A program made the translations under genes and the position numbers. Of a DNA stretch of 64,000 bases, positions 36,289 through 42,425 are shown piece by piece (the first letter of the stretch is position 1; each line of letters opens with the position of its first letter). The stretch covers positions 2,258,501 to 2,322,500 of the forward strand of contig NZ_JAQGPL010000001.1 in assembly GCF_028826105.1 (NCBI RefSeq). The letters are read 5' to 3'. Below the pieces are notes generated by a model. It did no database searches. It was not told where the DNA came from and worked only from the letters and a program-made list of their open reading frames with translations. This DNA is from Paenibacillus humicola (GTDB taxonomy: Bacteria > Bacillota > Bacilli > Paenibacillales > Paenibacillaceae).

Positions 36289-36427
36289 GCGCTCGTCGAC
36301 TTGCCTTTTCCGTCAGGGAAGGGGGACGACGGAAACTGCGGCATCCTTCCTCGAATCTTGCGCACGTCGGCTTGCCCTTTCGTCATGAAAAGGGTAGGAC
36401 GGAGCTGCGGCATCCTCCCCCGAATCT
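36289..36427. repeat. Imperfect tandem repeat, two units of about 70 bp
   Basis: Unit 1 (36289-36358) and unit 2 (36360-36427) both run GCGC-A/T-CGTCGrCTTGCC...CTGCGGCATCCT...CGAATCT. Each carries an inner hairpin-like CCTTTTCcGTC...GGGAAGG or CCCTTT...AAAAGGG. Unit 2 reaches the stop codon of the sulfotransferase gene. Read on the minus strand it encodes repeated RKIRGRMPQ-type peptides, but without a ribosome binding site. It looks like an intergenic repeat element. Confidence 0.7.
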
Positions 36428-37187
36428 ACGTATAGCCGTATTTGCTCATGACGGCGCTGCATTCGGTTTGAATGATGCGGATATCCGCATCGGAAACCGG
36501 ATTTTTATGGCTTCCCACCTTGTAAGCAAGCGTGAGCTCGATCTCTTCCTCGGTCACGTCCGCCACTTTGGAAATCAGATCGAGCGTTGCCTGGTCGCGG
36601 TTAACGAGGTTTTCGTAGACGACCAGGTGGGCTCTCGGATCCTGCTCGGCCAGTTCCAAATAATAGCCGGCATTTTCATTCCATTTGGTCGTGAAATCGC
36701 CGATGCGGTTGTACCAGCCGACCGAGCTGCGCCACGTGTCCACGGGATGGCGGACGATCAGCAAAATATCGGCTTCGGGAAAACATTGCCGGAATAACGT
36801 CAGCGCCGGCCGGCCGTACCGGACCTCCTTAAAACCGATCCGGTCATGGGTATCCCGGAAAGGAGCGTAAAGCCGGGCGAACAAAGCGCGAACGGAAGCG
36901 ATTACCGCTTCGTCCACATAGGTGCTTTCCGGCGTCATGTTGGCGATCCACTGGTTGGCGTCTTCCCCGTTGCCGAAGAAAGCCTCGCGTTCACTGCTGC
37001 TGTGATCGGAAAAATAACGAATCAGCCGCCCGATGTTCTCGTAATCGTTCAGCACCCCGCCGTGCTCGCCCCAAATCAAGCTTCCACTGCGCCGGTTGCA
37101 TATCCGCTGGAGCAGGGTCGAACCGGACCGTTGAACGGGCGCCGCAACGATCAGGTGAATCGGTTCGTTTTCGGTTCGTTCCGACAT
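36426..37187 (-). CDS. PAPS-dependent sulfotransferase-like protein
   Basis: 253 residues. The 5'-phosphosulfate loop is PVQRSGSTLLQRI (about 18-29) and the 3'-phosphate binding motif is VRHPVDTWRSSVGWY (about 145-159, with R146 and S154/S155), both typical of Stf0/carbohydrate sulfotransferases. It would move sulfate from PAPS to a hydroxyl or amine acceptor, perhaps a sugar. The ATG at 37187 has AAGGAG 13 bases upstream; the frame continues upstream without conservation. It is divergent from a glycosyltransferase gene 105 bases away. Acceptor unknown. Confidence 0.85.
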   Translation of the reverse strand: MSERTENEPIHLIVAAPVQRSGSTLLQRICNRRSGSLIWGEHGGVLNDYENIGRLIRYFSDHSSSEREAFFGNGEDANQWIANMTPESTYVDEAVIASVRALFARLYAPFRDTHDRIGFKEVRYGRPALTLFRQCFPEADILLIVRHPVDTWRSSVGWYNRIGDFTTKWNENAGYYLELAEQDPRAHLVVYENLVNRDQATLDLISKVADVTEEEIELTLAYKVGSHKNPVSDADIRIIQTECSAVMSKYGYT

Positions 37188-37240
37188 AAGCGAGTTCAGC
37201 CTCCTTGTCCGTTCGCGAAATGAAATTCGCTTACAATCTT

Positions 37241-37270
37241 TTAACCTGTCTGACGGAAGCGGCATACAAT
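37241..37270 (+). promoter_or_regulatory. Possible promoter of the GT2 gene
   Basis: TTAACC (37241-37246) and TACAAT (37265-37270), 18-base spacer, 22 bases before the start codon. Confidence 0.4.
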
Positions 37271-37292
37271 GTGGTATCAAGGGAGTGACCGC

Positions 37293-38603
37293 ATGCTGCT
37301 TGTATTTGTTCTGGATACGGGAGCCAACGCCCGTTCCCTGCAAATGACGGAACGGCTGGTCCGGTCAGCGCCGATAAACTGCCGGGTCGTCCCGCTCCAA
37401 CGCGATTTTGCGGCTGCGATGAACCGGGAAATTTTAAGCGGGTATACGGAACCTTTCTTCGTTACGCTGCTGGCGGGGGAGTCCGTGGATGAATCGTTTC
37501 TTAGCCAAGCGGATGCGTGGATGCGGCGTGCGGACGACACCGTCGCCGGCTTGCTGCTCAACCCGGAGTCCGGCTGGAATGGAGACGAGAAACGGGACCC
37601 GCCGCGGGGACCTGTCGTCTGGCGGACGGAAGCGGTACGGTCCGGGAACGGTCCGGGCTTTGCGACTCTCGACCGGCTGCCGTTCGAACGATATGTACTG
37701 CTCGAGCTGCAGTACAGGCTGACTCCGGCATGGCGGTGGAGCGAAATCGCGGCAGACTGCTGGAGCGTCCGGCGCGGATCGAACCCGGGCTGGATGCGGA
37801 CACGGGAAGAATGGGAGGCGCTGGCGCCCCTATTGGCCGCCAAGCCATCCTCCCAAACCGCCGGCTGCCGCCCGCTGTTCAGCGTCGTCATCTGCACCTA
37901 CAACGACGCGCCTTATTTGAAATGGGCGATTCGCAGCGTCTTCGTCCAGCAGTGCCCGGATTGGGAGCTAATCATCGTGGACGACGGCTCGCACGATGAA
38001 ACAGCGCTCATCCTGGAGGCGGAAGCAGCGGATCCCCGCGTAACCGTTCTTCGCAATGAAACGAACCGCGGAAAAGGCTTCAGCCTGAATCGTGCGCTTG
38101 CCCATGCAAAAGGAGCATGGCTGGTGGAACTGGATGCCGACGACTGGTTAGCGCCCGACTGCCTTTCCGTATTCGCAGCACATATTCGAAGCGAGAGCGA
38201 GAGCGAAAGCGAGCTGCGAACCGGCGCTTATTTTGCCGGTCATTATGAATGGCAGCAGCTTAGCGGCGGACACCAGCCCGTCTACCGCAATATCCGTCAG
38301 CCGGCCCGGTTTACGCCTGAAACGTTATTGGAATACGCCGAACCGCTGGCTCCGAGATGCTTCAGCCTATCGGCGCTTCGCGAGCTTGGCGGCTGGCTGG
38401 TCTCGGATCCGTTCGGCGGCTCGCTATATGAAGATATACAAATGCTGCTGCGAATGGCGCAATTTTACGCCGTCAAGCGCTCGGACGGGACCCTGTACCA
38501 CCGCAGGCTTCGTCCGGACAGCGTCACAAGCGTCAACAGGACGTCCTATTCAAGCTGGAAAAAATGGTTTCTGCAAACGGTATGCCGAAGCGGAAACGAA
38601 TGA
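37293..38603 (+). CDS. Glycosyltransferase family 2 with degenerate N-terminal module
   Basis: 436 residues. The C-terminal GT-A domain begins near residue 194: FSVVICTYNDAPYLKWAIRSV, IIVDDGSHDET, RNETNRGKGFSLNRAL and the DxD-type ELDADDW near 281. The first 190 residues (LLVFVLDTGANARSLQMTERL, FFVTLLAGESVDESFLSQAD) follow the outline of a GT-A fold but lack the metal motif, so this half may be a degenerate duplicate. AAGGGAG is seven bases before the ATG at 37293. A run of GAGAGCGAGAGC codons (SESESE) lies near residue 300. No membrane segment. Part of the presumed spore-surface locus. Confidence 0.85.
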   Translation: MLLVFVLDTGANARSLQMTERLVRSAPINCRVVPLQRDFAAAMNREILSGYTEPFFVTLLAGESVDESFLSQADAWMRRADDTVAGLLLNPESGWNGDEKRDPPRGPVVWRTEAVRSGNGPGFATLDRLPFERYVLLELQYRLTPAWRWSEIAADCWSVRRGSNPGWMRTREEWEALAPLLAAKPSSQTAGCRPLFSVVICTYNDAPYLKWAIRSVFVQQCPDWELIIVDDGSHDETALILEAEAADPRVTVLRNETNRGKGFSLNRALAHAKGAWLVELDADDWLAPDCLSVFAAHIRSESESESELRTGAYFAGHYEWQQLSGGHQPVYRNIRQPARFTPETLLEYAEPLAPRCFSLSALRELGGWLVSDPFGGSLYEDIQMLLRMAQFYAVKRSDGTLYHRRLRPDSVTSVNRTSYSSWKKWFLQTVCRSGNE

Positions 38604-38625
38604 TACGTCTGCGTAAACGGGCGCG

Positions 38626-38826
38626 TCAGGCCGGCAGAAACCGGACATATTCGGTATTGACTTCCAGTACGCTTACCTGCGTTCCCGGCGTATAAGCGGA
38701 GGGACTGACCTGGACGGTAAAAAATCCTTGGCTGACGCCGGACAGAACACCGGTCACCACCTGCGACATTTGAAACACTTCGACTCGGCGGCCGATAAAG
38801 CGCGCCAACGCCTGGGAAAAATCCAT
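38626..38826 (-). CDS. DUF2642-like small protein
   Basis: 66 residues forming what looks like a small beta barrel (IGRRVEVFQMSQVVTGVLSGVSQGFFTVQVSP). It is similar in pattern to the C-terminal 60 residues of its upstream neighbour and to DUF2642 proteins of spore-forming Bacilli. AGAGGTGTG precedes the ATG. It starts 29 bases after the stop of the neighbour gene on the same strand, so the pair is an operon. Function unknown; a spore-surface role is inference from context. Confidence 0.7.
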   Translation of the reverse strand: MDFSQALARFIGRRVEVFQMSQVVTGVLSGVSQGFFTVQVSPSAYTPGTQVSVLEVNTEYVRFLPA

Positions 38827-38855
38827 CTTTTCACACCTCTTATTCGATAGTCGGT

Positions 38856-39368
38856 TTACACAAACGAATTGATTTCGGCAACCGGAATGAGTACGATGGC
38901 GCCCGACGGCTCGGTAATGGCCACATAATCGTTTCCGACCTCCGTGAGCGTTCCTGTAATCGTACCGGCGTCGGTTTCGATGATGATCGCCGTGCTAATC
39001 CGGGAATTCAGCGCATCGCGAAGGCTTTGCGTGATCGGCGGGGCGCTGATGATCGCCTGGATCGAATTGACGTCGCTGCGAAGCTGGTTCGTTATCGCGG
39101 TGAGCTGCGAGTAGCCGGATGTCAGCTGCGAGTAGCCCGCGGTGAGCTGCGAATAGCCTGCAGACTGCTGGTCGATCCGGGTACGAAGATCGAGGGCGAC
39201 CTGGTCGACACGCTGTTGCAGCTGACGGATCAGCGAGAGCAAGGAGATGCCGGGCTTCTTTTTTCGTTTCCGGACGATTTTCCGGCATCGAATGACGGGC
39301 TTCGGCTTATGCTTCGGAGGGCATGGGCAAAGCCGAAGCTTTTTCGGTTTCACTTTACATACGGTCAC
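38856..39368 (-). CDS. Basic-head / heptad-repeat / DUF2642-like protein, probable spore surface protein
   Basis: 170 residues in three parts: a Cys/Lys/Pro-rich head (CKVKPKKLRLCPCPPKHK with further Cys and a KRKKKPG stretch), a helical stalk with three exact or near-exact 7-residue GYSQLTA/S units (about residues 70-90) flanked by heptad-like sequence, and a C-terminal DUF2642-like domain (IIIETDAGTITGTLTEVGNDYVAI). The GTG at 39368 is nine bases after GGGAG; the ATG three codons upstream touches the site and is less likely. A CATAAGTTA (sigma-K-like -10) lies 33 bases upstream. Function inferred only. Confidence 0.72.
   Translation of the reverse strand: MTVCKVKPKKLRLCPCPPKHKPKPVIRCRKIVRKRKKKPGISLLSLIRQLQQRVDQVALDLRTRIDQQSAGYSQLTAGYSQLTSGYSQLTAITNQLRSDVNSIQAIISAPPITQSLRDALNSRISTAIIIETDAGTITGTLTEVGNDYVAITEPSGAIVLIPVAEINSFV
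39099..39161 (-). repeat. 21-bp tandem repeat encoding GYSQLTA heptads
   Basis: Three units encode AGYSQLT, AGYSQLT and SGYSQLT; the seven-residue period equals a coiled-coil heptad, so unit number would set stalk length. Confidence 0.85.
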
Positions 39369-39400
39369 GCAATTCATCTCCCTTTTGTTCCGGTTGCTTG

Positions 39401-39409
39401 TAACTTATG
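39401..39409 (-). promoter_or_regulatory. Sigma-K-like -10 element
   Basis: On the minus strand the sequence is GCATAAGTTA, matching CATAnnnTA. No AC-type -35 is evident at the usual distance, so this is tentative. Confidence 0.4.
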
Positions 39410-39468
39410 CTGGACAGATAGGGGGGGAAGCTAGTCTATTTGAAGATGATGAATTCACCCAGACAAGC

Positions 39469-39507
39469 AAAAAAAGCCGGCGGACGCCTTTTGGAGCGCC
39501 TGCCGGC
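39469..39507 (-). terminator. Rho-independent terminator of the GT4-like gene
   Basis: On the minus strand GCCGGCAGGCG / CGTCCGCCGGC with an eight-base loop and seven T. Confidence 0.85.
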
Positions 39508-39542
39508 CGCCTTTTACCTGCAGTAAAACATGAACGGTAAAC

Positions 39543-40580
39543 CTATCGTGCCGGATAAACGCCGCCTTTCTCAAGCCTGTTCAGGATATGGGCGAGCGCC
39601 ACCTTCGCGCGGCTGGTCCAGGAGTTCTTGAAGGCATACCGCTGCCGCATGCGGACCTTCATCTCGTGATTTTCCTCGATCGCTTTCGCCACGGTCTCCG
39701 CGGCATTGCCGGCGTCAGCGAAATAGACGAGATTGCGGAATTTTCCGAGCTCCTGCATGTTCGAGGCGACAACCGGCTTGCCGGCCGAAATATATTCGTA
39801 AAATTTGACGGGATCGCAGCCGGCGATCATTTCGGTAAGCAGAAAAGGAATCAGGGCCGCGTCGAACCAGCTCAAATACGCCGGCAGCTCGCGGTAAGGC
39901 TTCATCCCGAGAAGCGTTACGTTCGGATGCTCGATACTCCGGTTGTACAGCTGGTTTGATCCGATCAGCACCACCGGGAAACAGTCGGCGATCCGGTATA
40001 CCATTTCCGCATCGAGCCAGGTGTAAATGGCGCCGTAATACCCGACGAGCGGCCGGCCTCCGGTATCCGGCAAATCGGCGGGACGCGGAAGCCTGCCCGC
40101 GGCAGGCTTGAAGTGATCGAAATCGGCGCCGTTCGACAATAGAACGGTTGGAACGCCCCGACTCGTATGCTCCCTGAAAATGGCGCCGGACGAAGCGAAC
40201 GTCAGCTGCGTTTTCTTTTCCATGACCGGGATGATTCCGCTCCAGGCCGAAAACTCGCCGGCAGCCAGGTCGCAGGAGTCGAAAATCGCCAGATCGTGAT
40301 CGTAGCAGTCGATGAACCAGCCTTGGTTCACCGCGCACCAAAACACCAGCTTGCCTTTTACAAGCGGCTTGAAATCGACGGAACGGTGGATGACCGTGAA
40401 ATTCGGCAGCTCGGGGAACGGATGATAGACGGGCGTTTCCTGGGGGAACAAATCGGCCGGATTGATAAAGACGACATTCGCGCCCGCCTGGGCGAGCGCC
40501 TTCATCATCTGCTGCGGACGCTGATGCATGAATTGATAATCGATCGCAGGGGGATACACGATCGTAAGATCCAGCCCCAA
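39543..40580 (-). CDS. GT4-like glycosyltransferase
   Basis: 345 residues, GT-B fold. The N-terminal half starts LDLTIVYPPAIDYQFMHQRPQQMMKALA, a pattern common in spore- and capsule-related glycosyltransferases; the C-terminal half has VGYYGAIYTWLD, ELPAYLSWFDAALIPF and the donor-binding DPVKFYEYISAGKPVVASN. The start is a TTG at 40580 preceded by a perfect AAGGAGGT seven bases upstream; the longer open frame has no such site. Divergent from the cgeB-like gene. It should move a nucleotide-activated sugar; the sugar is unknown. Confidence 0.85.
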   Translation of the reverse strand: MGLDLTIVYPPAIDYQFMHQRPQQMMKALAQAGANVVFINPADLFPQETPVYHPFPELPNFTVIHRSVDFKPLVKGKLVFWCAVNQGWFIDCYDHDLAIFDSCDLAAGEFSAWSGIIPVMEKKTQLTFASSGAIFREHTSRGVPTVLLSNGADFDHFKPAAGRLPRPADLPDTGGRPLVGYYGAIYTWLDAEMVYRIADCFPVVLIGSNQLYNRSIEHPNVTLLGMKPYRELPAYLSWFDAALIPFLLTEMIAGCDPVKFYEYISAGKPVVASNMQELGKFRNLVYFADAGNAAETVAKAIEENHEMKVRMRQRYAFKNSWTSRAKVALAHILNRLEKGGVYPAR

Positions 40581-40723
40581 ATTTCCCACCTCCTTCAATA
40601 ATTTCGATAAGGCAGCAGCTTTTCTCATCTTATGACAAACCGTATGCGCGGGGCTGTGCGCCAACCTACTGCCCGCCGGCAACAGGCGGTGCCCTTTTTT
40701 TGCTTGTCCAAGTCATGTACCTA

Positions 40724-40751
40724 GTCATGTTCATGCTGCGGGCATAAACTA
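40724..40751 (+). promoter_or_regulatory. Putative sigma-K promoter of the cgeB-like gene
   Basis: CATAAACTA at 40743-40751 matches the sigma-K -10 CATAnnnTA. Upstream is a direct repeat TAGTCATGT/AAGTCATGT (40711-40730), one copy of which could serve as -35 or as an activator site; spacing is not ideal for sigma-E. Confidence 0.45.
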
Positions 40752-40802
40752 GCTTCATGGCAACAAAAAGGCTTACGCATAAGATCCGAAGGAGGACATC
40801 CG

Positions 40803-41750
40803 ATGAAAATCCTGTTCCTCAACTCGGCTCCGATCGTAAAGTTGGGCATGGGGCGGGGTTTTGTCAGGCTCGGGCATGAGGTGGAATTTATTCATCCCGG
40901 TGAGCAGGAACCGGACGTCATGCTGGCCAAAATCGATGCGTTCAAACCGGACCTGCTGTTCACCGATGGCGGAGTCGGGCGGGTGGAAGCGATCACCGGC
41001 ATAATCGACCGGACCGGCATCCCGCACATTTATTGGGGAATCGAGGATCCGGTCGCCCGCAACATGTCGCTGGCGTACGGGCGAAAATCGGTCCTGACGC
41101 TGACGACCTTTACGGAATGGATCGACGAGCTGTACCGGCCGAACGGCATTCGCGCGATTTCCGTGCCGTTCGCCTGCAACCCCGGCTTCCACCGGCGCGG
41201 CGTTTACCGTCCTGAGCTCGCCCGCGAGCTTGCGTTCGTCGGCAACAATTACGAGGTGCATCCGAACCGGCTTGCCGGGAACCGGCTCCTGTTCGAGCCG
41301 CTGATCGGGCGGGGGGCCGACATCGCCTTCTACGGCGGCGCGCATTGGGTCAGCGGGAAATTCGCGTTCCGCATACCGCAAGACATGTATAAAGGCTACA
41401 TGGCTTACGAGCATTGGCCGGATCTATGCGCGTCCGTGCCGTTCATTCTGGGCGTCCACAGCATCAACGGCTCGAAAACGATGCAGTCCATGCGGACGTT
41501 CGAGGTGCTCGGCTGCGCCGGTTTTTTCTTCACGCAGCATACGACGGCCATCGAAGCGATGTTCGAGAACCATACCCATCTCGTCTGGTCGCGGTCGCCG
41601 GAGGAAACGCTCGAGCTGTACGACTATTACAGAAGCCGCCCGGATGCGATGGAGCGGATCCGAAAGCAGGGCCAGCAATTCGTGTACGATCATCATACGT
41701 ACGACCATCGGGCGGCGCAAATTTTGGAAGCCCTGAAGCCGCTTCTGTAA
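40803..41750 (+). CDS. cgeB: CgeB-like glycosyltransferase (spore surface maturation)
   Basis: 315 residues, GT-B fold of the CgeB/DUF3880 type. Landmarks: FLNSAPIVKLGMGRGFVRLGHEV at the start, PHIYWGIEDPV, AFVGNNYEVHPNR in the middle, and the C-terminal acceptor-sugar region MRTFEVLGCAGFFFTQHT followed by SRSPEETLELYDYY. In B. subtilis CgeB (317 residues) is a mother-cell product that matures the spore crust glycan. ATG after GAAGGAGG. It is followed 12 bases later by a methyltransferase gene. Confidence 0.87.
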   Translation: MKILFLNSAPIVKLGMGRGFVRLGHEVEFIHPGEQEPDVMLAKIDAFKPDLLFTDGGVGRVEAITGIIDRTGIPHIYWGIEDPVARNMSLAYGRKSVLTLTTFTEWIDELYRPNGIRAISVPFACNPGFHRRGVYRPELARELAFVGNNYEVHPNRLAGNRLLFEPLIGRGADIAFYGGAHWVSGKFAFRIPQDMYKGYMAYEHWPDLCASVPFILGVHSINGSKTMQSMRTFEVLGCAGFFFTQHTTAIEAMFENHTHLVWSRSPEETLELYDYYRSRPDAMERIRKQGQQFVYDHHTYDHRAAQILEALKPLL

Positions 41751-41762
41751 AGGAGGACGACA

Positions 41763-42425
41763 TTGGAAAACAAACTGGATTCCCGCTTTTTCGTGGACAC
41801 GGATCCGAAGACGGACGAAATCGTGTTCAAGCTGCCGAATACATGGTGGAGCCGCTACTATGAATACGAGTGGGCAAAGCAGTTTCCGGAGCCGGACGAC
41901 GTCGTGCTCGACGCCGCGAGCGGTGTCGACCATCCGTTCAAATTTTATTTGACGACCGTCGCGCGCGAAGTCCACGCCTGCGATATCGATCCCCGCATCA
42001 TGACGCCGGAGCGGGTTGTGGAAGCGATCCGGAGAAGCTGGTTCGGACCGGAGGCCGCCGACATCGTACAGGCGAAGTATATTGGGAACGTTCATCTGAA
42101 GTGGGGAAATTTGGCCAACCTGCCTTACGGAGACCGGACGTTCGATAAAGTGTTCTGCATTTCCGTGCTGGAGGAAATGCCGGAGCGGGACCGGAAGGCG
42201 GCCTTCGTCGAGTTTGGCCGTGTCTTGAAGGACGGCGGCTTGATTGTCCTGACCTTCGACTATCCGAATATCGACCTGAAGCAGCTCTGCCGCGACGTCG
42301 CCGCAGCCGGCCTGGAACTCGCCGGGAACGCCGATTTCGAGAAACCGGCGAACGCGATTTATACGGAGATGTGGGGCGGATTGCATTGTTTCCGGTGCGT
42401 GCTTCGGAAGAGGGAGCCGGCCTGA
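41763..42425 (+). CDS. SAM-dependent methyltransferase in the glycan locus
   Basis: 220 residues, class I fold. The SAM motif is VVLDAASGVDHPFKF (about 47-61), then HACDIDPRI, and the Methyltransf_11 C-terminal block FDKVFCISVLEEMPERDR and GRVLKDGGLIVLTFDYP. TTG start six bases after AAAGGAGG. It is co-transcribed with the cgeB-like gene, so methylation of a surface sugar is plausible. Followed by a terminator. Confidence 0.85.
   Translation: MENKLDSRFFVDTDPKTDEIVFKLPNTWWSRYYEYEWAKQFPEPDDVVLDAASGVDHPFKFYLTTVAREVHACDIDPRIMTPERVVEAIRRSWFGPEAADIVQAKYIGNVHLKWGNLANLPYGDRTFDKVFCISVLEEMPERDRKAAFVEFGRVLKDGGLIVLTFDYPNIDLKQLCRDVAAAGLELAGNADFEKPANAIYTEMWGGLHCFRCVLRKREPA

Follow-up and report, generated by a model that had tools for sequence, protein, structure and literature searches.

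A 64,000-nucleotide (nt) stretch of the Paenibacillus humicola genome (assembly GCF_028826105.1, contig NZ_JAQGPL010000001.1, positions 2,258,501-2,322,500 of the forward strand; hereafter the window) carries seven genes at 36426-42425 that probably form a late mother-cell module, which would glycosylate a coiled-coil/Sm-barrel protein of the spore surface and sulfate the glycan. Judged by gene content across relatives, three of them (GT2, SM66 and STALK, the triad) are the core of this cassette, and around this core the further glycosyltransferase genes, the methyltransferase gene and those for sulfation are interchangeable additions. An original prediction, made from the DNA of the window, had named the seven-gene content and proposed a sulfated spore glycan. 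All seven genes are present in the sequence, several with corrected starts, and the idea stands as a prediction in a stronger form: a core module whose promoters are of sigma-K type, with optional sulfation by three kinds of sulfotransferase. The genes are as follows (aa, amino acids).

36426..37187, minus strand: SULF, sulfotransferase of the type using 3'-phosphoadenosine 5'-phosphosulfate (PAPS), PF13469, 253 aa; ATG at 37187 with AAGGAGG upstream
37293..38603, plus strand: GT2, 436-aa glycosyltransferase with a conserved N-terminal part; core cassette gene
38626..38826, minus strand: SM66, 66-aa small protein; core cassette gene
38856..39377, minus strand: STALK, 173 aa, with a Lys/Arg/Cys-rich head, a coiled coil (helix 46-111) and a predicted C-terminal DUF2642 Sm/Hfq-like barrel
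39543..~40583, minus strand: GT4, weakly TuaH-like glycosyltransferase, ~346 aa; TTG start with GGAGGTG
40803..41750, plus strand: CGEB, PF13524 (CgeB-family) glycosyltransferase, 315 aa
41763..42425, plus strand: MT, S-adenosylmethionine-dependent methyltransferase, 220 aa; TTG start with AGGAGG

The starts of SULF, GT2 (37293) and GT4 (~40583) are our own reading of the sequence, and SULF most likely begins at ATG 37187 rather than at 37343. Scanning the window for Rfam families (at gathering thresholds) and for tRNA genes gave no match.

The conservation of the cassette was followed first in a set of 59 genomes made up of the window's own and those of 58 relatives. Relatives of CGEB with 59% identity occur in a genome of the same genus (G020) and in one of another family (G036), and their loci (L057 and L058) contain GT2, SM66, STALK, GT4, CGEB and MT in the order and orientations of the window, with SULF absent. 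For five flanking genes of the window, none of the 15 loci under comparison gave a match; on this comparison of neighborhoods, the cassette is a unit. Two further loci hold GT2-SM66-STALK only, adjoined by a NeuB-family gene in L060 (G021) and by a PF00685 sulfotransferase gene in L062 (G022). In locus L168, the layout of the window is kept in mirrored form (CGEB, GT4, STALK, SM66, GT2, SULF and an adenosine 5'-phosphosulfate (APS) kinase gene), with identities of 62% for CGEB, 67% for GT4 and 46% for SULF; MT was not found in this locus. Because L168 keeps the layout, the adjacency of SULF and the cassette is not peculiar to one genome, and synteny of the sulfotransferase with the cgeB-like gene, on which the original prediction had staked itself, is thereby retained in a relative. 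Given that L057 and L058 are otherwise complete, SULF is, on gene content, an optional addition rather than a part of the core.

Across the order, GT2 relatives (E ≤1e-70) were found in 50 of 392 genomes at 51 places, all of which were scored on stretches of 5-21 kb (most ~18 kb). SM66 and the STALK C-terminal domain are present at 47 of the 51. GT2 occurs in 11 of the 13 genomes with SULF compared with 39 of the 379 others (p 3e-9, shared ancestry ignored). Starting from SULF, a scan of named genomes with a 28-sequence family alignment and the best 80 of 133 relatives yielded 79 loci, which were split at a gap in E-value into 35 SULF loci (L072-L106, E ≤6e-50) and 44 control loci (L107-L150, E from 2e-31); short contigs are common among the controls and also occur at a few of the 35. 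STALK, SM66 and a strong GT2 match lie within ~10 kb of SULF at six of the 35 loci (L082, L084, L085, L089, L102 and L106), compared with none of the 44 control loci for STALK and for SM66 each. The CGEB profile (4/35, two of them weak) and YheC/D (3/35) were likewise absent from the control loci (0/44 each), and a GT2 profile at a loose threshold did not separate the sets (15/35 and 18/44). In L084, L085, L089, L102 and L106, SULF comes after a gene for a glycosyltransferase of 721-882 aa and its start overlaps that gene. Four GT2 relatives (L238, L239, L240 and L241) lack SM66, STALK and the promoter pattern described below, and perhaps reflect a different use of the enzyme.

The link to sporulation comes mainly from promoters; SpoIVA, a gene of spore-formers, is present in the window's genome. 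We take the sigma-K consensus to be AC-N16/17-CATAnnnTA. These letters are compatible with the published two-block sigma-K motif, in which elements of 5 nt and 10 nt are separated by 14-16 (PMC517825). Three elements of this type lie in the cassette.

37244..37271, plus strand: sigma-K-like promoter AC-N17-CATACAATG before GT2, the last base being G instead of A
39401..39409, minus strand: sigma-K-type -10 element CATAAGTTA before STALK; no matching -35 found
40743..40751, plus strand: sigma-K-type -10 element CATAAACTA before CGEB; no matching -35 found

The GT2 element (AC-N17-CATACAAT, beginning at 37244) is part of a wider pattern: AC-N16/17-CATAnnnT[AG] occurs within 170 nt before 28 of the 51 GT2 genes, compared with an expectation of 0.5 given how often it occurs in the same stretches, and before 5 of 565 mechanically called control open reading frames (ORFs) of these stretches. 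The GT2 match is therefore more than chance. Its spacer sequence varies by lineage, and both elements and their distance of 17 are kept (window, L082, L084, L085, L089 and L106). For STALK, CATAnnnTA was present at 6 of 11 loci, compared with a background of 9/141 for K or E -10 elements, and 27 of 47 STALK ORFs have it no more than 120 nt from their 5' end; the full sigma-K pattern was present there at 5 of the 47. On the two strands of the window CATAnnnTA occurs seven times, two of them before STALK and CGEB. The earlier claim of mother-cell-type -10 elements before two units is thus borne out for the -10 sequences themselves, but AC at the sigma-K distance is absent from both. No sigma-70 excess was found in the locus (4 matches, 3.3 expected). 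A sigma-E pattern was seen at the SULF start in 0 of 25 Bacillota loci and in 1 of 383 control genes.

The assignment of SULF to a sulfotransferase family was confirmed. SULF matches PF13469 with 42.3 bits (Pfam cut-off 27), and R20, G22, S23, T24, R146, P148 and S154 are invariant in the 28-sequence alignment; we take R20-T24 to be the 5'-phosphosulfate-binding (5'-PSB) motif RxGST and R146-S154 the 3'-phosphate-binding (3'-PSB) motif RxP...S of the PAPS-binding loops. The structure model is confident (mean predicted local distance difference test score, pLDDT, 94.8). A protein search returned 66 clusters at E ≤1e-3, that of the window's SULF included, and the 19 with an organism assignment all belong to Bacillales, in genera that are presumably spore-forming. 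The 35 SULF loci comprise 32 from Bacillota, two from Pirellulales and one from Kutchimonas. The Pirellulales relatives (L078 and L090) come from two metagenome-assembled genomes, and five SULF relatives (P0021, P0028, P0031, P0041 and P0049) have a long N-terminal extension.

SULF is one of several sulfotransferases associated with the triad. A sulfotransferase gene lies near 16 of the 51 GT2 places, in 8 of the 15 GT2-bearing genera by hand count: SULF at six, a PF00685-like gene at nine and a PF03567-like gene at one. Pfam agreed for six of the nine and for the PF03567-like gene; the remaining three were assigned with a profile derived from those six. The gene for APS kinase, the enzyme that produces the sulfate donor PAPS, lies near 10 of the 51 places, always together with a sulfotransferase (Fisher p 6e-7, shared ancestry ignored); in L234 it is split over two ORFs. 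Around SULF itself, an APS kinase gene was found within ~10 kb at 21 of the 35 loci (one weak) compared with 1 of 44 control loci, five of the 21 being from one lineage (the P. tyrfis/ehimensis group), and an ATP sulfurylase gene at 10 of 35 compared with 0 of 44. In L072, Pfam confirmed one of each. In L073 (8230-13656) and L079 (8241-13665), SULF and glycosyltransferase genes come immediately after those for ATP sulfurylase and APS kinase, which form a single ORF in L079; L073 combines SULF with two glycosyltransferases and a collagen-like protein, a gene set that suggests a sulfated BclA-type nap. In L098 (8356-16534), a PF13524 gene, GT2 and SULF are followed by ATP sulfurylase, an anion symporter (PF03600/PF00939), APS kinase and CysQ. 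By its annotated families, this set is a complete sulfation supply, covering sulfate activation and removal of the by-product 3'-phosphoadenosine 5'-phosphate. L100 has a supply set that was grouped with that of L098, for which alone Pfam and NCBIfam were run.

In B. subtilis, yisZ presumably encodes an APS kinase. The yitBA-yisZ genes, inferred to serve phosphosulfolactate synthesis, are expressed late in the mother-cell programme (PMC517825), which sets a precedent for sulfur metabolism at that stage.

Most of the remaining family assignments held. GT4 (PF13692, 28.6 bits, cut-off 27), CGEB (PF13524, 81.7 bits, cut-off 25) and MT (PF08241, 38.4 bits, cut-off 21.2, among methyltransferase families) pass their Pfam thresholds, the CgeB likeness being one of predicted family membership. 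GT2, described earlier as having two modules, shows one clear Pfam region (PF00535, residues 205-312), and a profile comparison of its halves (hhalign, probability 69, E 4.3e-5) lends weak support to the second module. A teichuronic reading, with GT4 as TuaH and GT2 as TuaG, was dropped because both scores fall far under the curated cut-offs (GT4 47.9 bits against the NCBIfam equivalog NF047676, cut-off 550; GT2 68 bits, cut-off 400).

Of the two small proteins originally called DUF2642-like, STALK reaches the PF10842 cut-off exactly (22.7 bits; 24.2 in a second search), but SM66 matches no Pfam family at cut-off, DUF2642 included; a profile comparison of SM66 with the STALK C-terminus gave a weak likeness (probability 29, E 5.9e-4). 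The STALK C-terminus has 15% identity to the barrel of GerQ, a spore-coat protein with an Hfq/Sm-like fold (PDB 8zra), Hfq chains score equally, and Foldseek returned no match at E 0.001 or better; any likeness to GerQ is therefore limited to a predicted fold class. A protein homologue search with STALK returned one relative besides itself, so relatives were collected by locus searches; a plasmid search for STALK gave no match. In one genus group (L217, L219 and L234), the stalk looks to be split in two: the C-terminal domain of STALK is found in a 130-aa protein, and a separate neighboring protein of ~200 aa is Lys-rich.

We propose the following working model. The mother cell would produce STALK, with its basic Cys-rich head, coiled-coil rod and predicted C-terminal barrel, together with SM66, and both proteins would assemble on the spore. 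A short glycan, most likely attached to Ser/Thr residues of the STALK rod, would be built by GT2, GT4 and CGEB, and MT may methylate it. SULF would then move sulfate from PAPS onto the glycan, giving an anionic, hydrophilic outer layer. This follows the outline of the earlier proposal that displayed stalks carry a glycan that is built, methylated and sulfated: synteny and the sigma-K-type promoters support its core, but sulfation is optional and methylation appears peripheral, with MT near GT2 at 3 of the 51 places.

A number of observations weigh against this model. CGEB, too, is near GT2 at 3 of the 51 places, four of the 51 GT2 matches contain one stop codon each, and 23 of the 51 GT2 genes lack the sigma-K pattern. 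The promoters before GT2, together with the -10 elements before STALK across relatives, support the spore link, but no sigma-K match was found at SULF's own start in the window or in the six triad loci. At the other Bacillota loci, a match at the SULF start was present in 4 of 25 compared with 18 of 383 control genes, with two places scanned per locus and one per control gene; the 25 exclude the six triad loci, three non-Bacillota loci and L074, where no gene was found to start from. SULF is rare, being present in 13 of the 392 genomes of the order and, of the 59 genomes, only in the window's own. The cassette of the window has no APS kinase gene beside SULF, and the sole APS kinase match in this genome (L151, G000:C1:1482317-1482760) is ~0.8 Mb away. 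Its setting is unusual for the only PAPS-making gene: it adjoins a sulfatase gene (PF00884, 136 bits) and another that, on visual inspection, is Gfo/Idh-like. Finally, related genomes are not independent, and five near-identical loci of one lineage enter several of the counts.

The main rival is that SULF is a protein-tyrosine sulfotransferase acting on STALK tyrosines (GYSQLT repeats), on a conserved loop tyrosine of SM66 or on another coat protein. The solved folds closest to the SULF model are indeed tyrosylprotein sulfotransferases, a point that also counts against glycan sulfation; identity to TPST, NDST and 3-OST (tyrosylprotein and heparan sulfotransferases) is about 10-18%. With STALK as the partner, the tyrosines are not conserved: no conserved acceptor was found in the STALK of L084, and the rods of L102 and L106 have no tyrosine. 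We consider this reading unlikely, if less so than the two that follow. SULF might instead be an unrelated passenger in the window's genome beside a spore-surface module of the other six genes, in line with L057 and L058, with its absence from 21 of the 22 genomes searched of the window's genus, and with five of the 11 genomes carrying both SULF and GT2 (one lineage), in which SULF and the triad are at separate places. The same neighborhood in L168 and the six triad loci, and the presence of three sulfotransferase families near the triad, make this improbable. Equally doubtful is a role of the cassette in modifying a polymer of the vegetative cell surface (teichuronic-acid-like or capsule), with CATA motifs that are due to chance, since the Tua-like scores and a weak sigma-70-like match (9/12) overlapping the sigma-K-type site before GT2 are opposed by the frequency of the sigma-K pattern before GT2 genes and by sigma-70 matches close to expectation.

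If glycan sulfation by the cassette is correct, the layer would be a new endospore chemistry and a bacterial counterpart of sulfated proteoglycans, and it would account for the proximity of PAPS-making genes to genes of spore-surface type in several spore-forming genera. The endospore surface governs adhesion, hydrophobicity and encounters in soil or host, and the promoter and synteny data single out a small, testable gene set in Paenibacillus and Cohnella strains. A broader version, to which we give an even chance, holds that many Paenibacillus relatives build a late mother-cell, proteoglycan-like spore surface of barrel-ended stalks, with glycans sulfated by one of three or more sulfotransferase families that can replace one another, in many cases alongside an APS kinase of their own. 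Such a layer of sulfated glycan would be the first known from bacterial endospores. No sulfated endospore glycan was reported among the matches listed in the open-licence literature searched.

Known systems resemble parts of this arrangement. The glycan sulfotransferase NodH, which acts in the sulfation of rhizobial Nod factors, has a dedicated ATP sulfurylase/APS kinase in NodPQ, and L072, L073, L079 and L098 likewise pair a sulfotransferase with these enzymes; the Nod factor is a secreted signal and not a spore layer, and the APS kinase of the window's genome lies outside the cluster. RaxST, which sulfates RaxX in Xanthomonas, is, like SULF, a bacterial PAPS sulfotransferase tied to a surface or secreted product. 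RaxST is linked to tyrosine sulfation (PMC4216712), whereas SULF is surrounded by glycosyltransferase genes and the STALK tyrosines vary. The closest parallel is the B. subtilis spore crust (cge, sps, yfn and ytc), with rhamnose, quinovose, glucose, glucosamine, muramic lactam, galactose and legionaminic acid among its sugars and CgeB and CgeD among its nine candidate glycosyltransferases (PMC10502511). Unlike the window's cassette, the crust is described in the accessible part of that source with no sulfate or sulfotransferase, and the crust proteins named there do not include the STALK/SM66 pair. What the crust shares with the proposed module is the use of late-sporulation glycosyltransferases to build a glycan on the spore surface.

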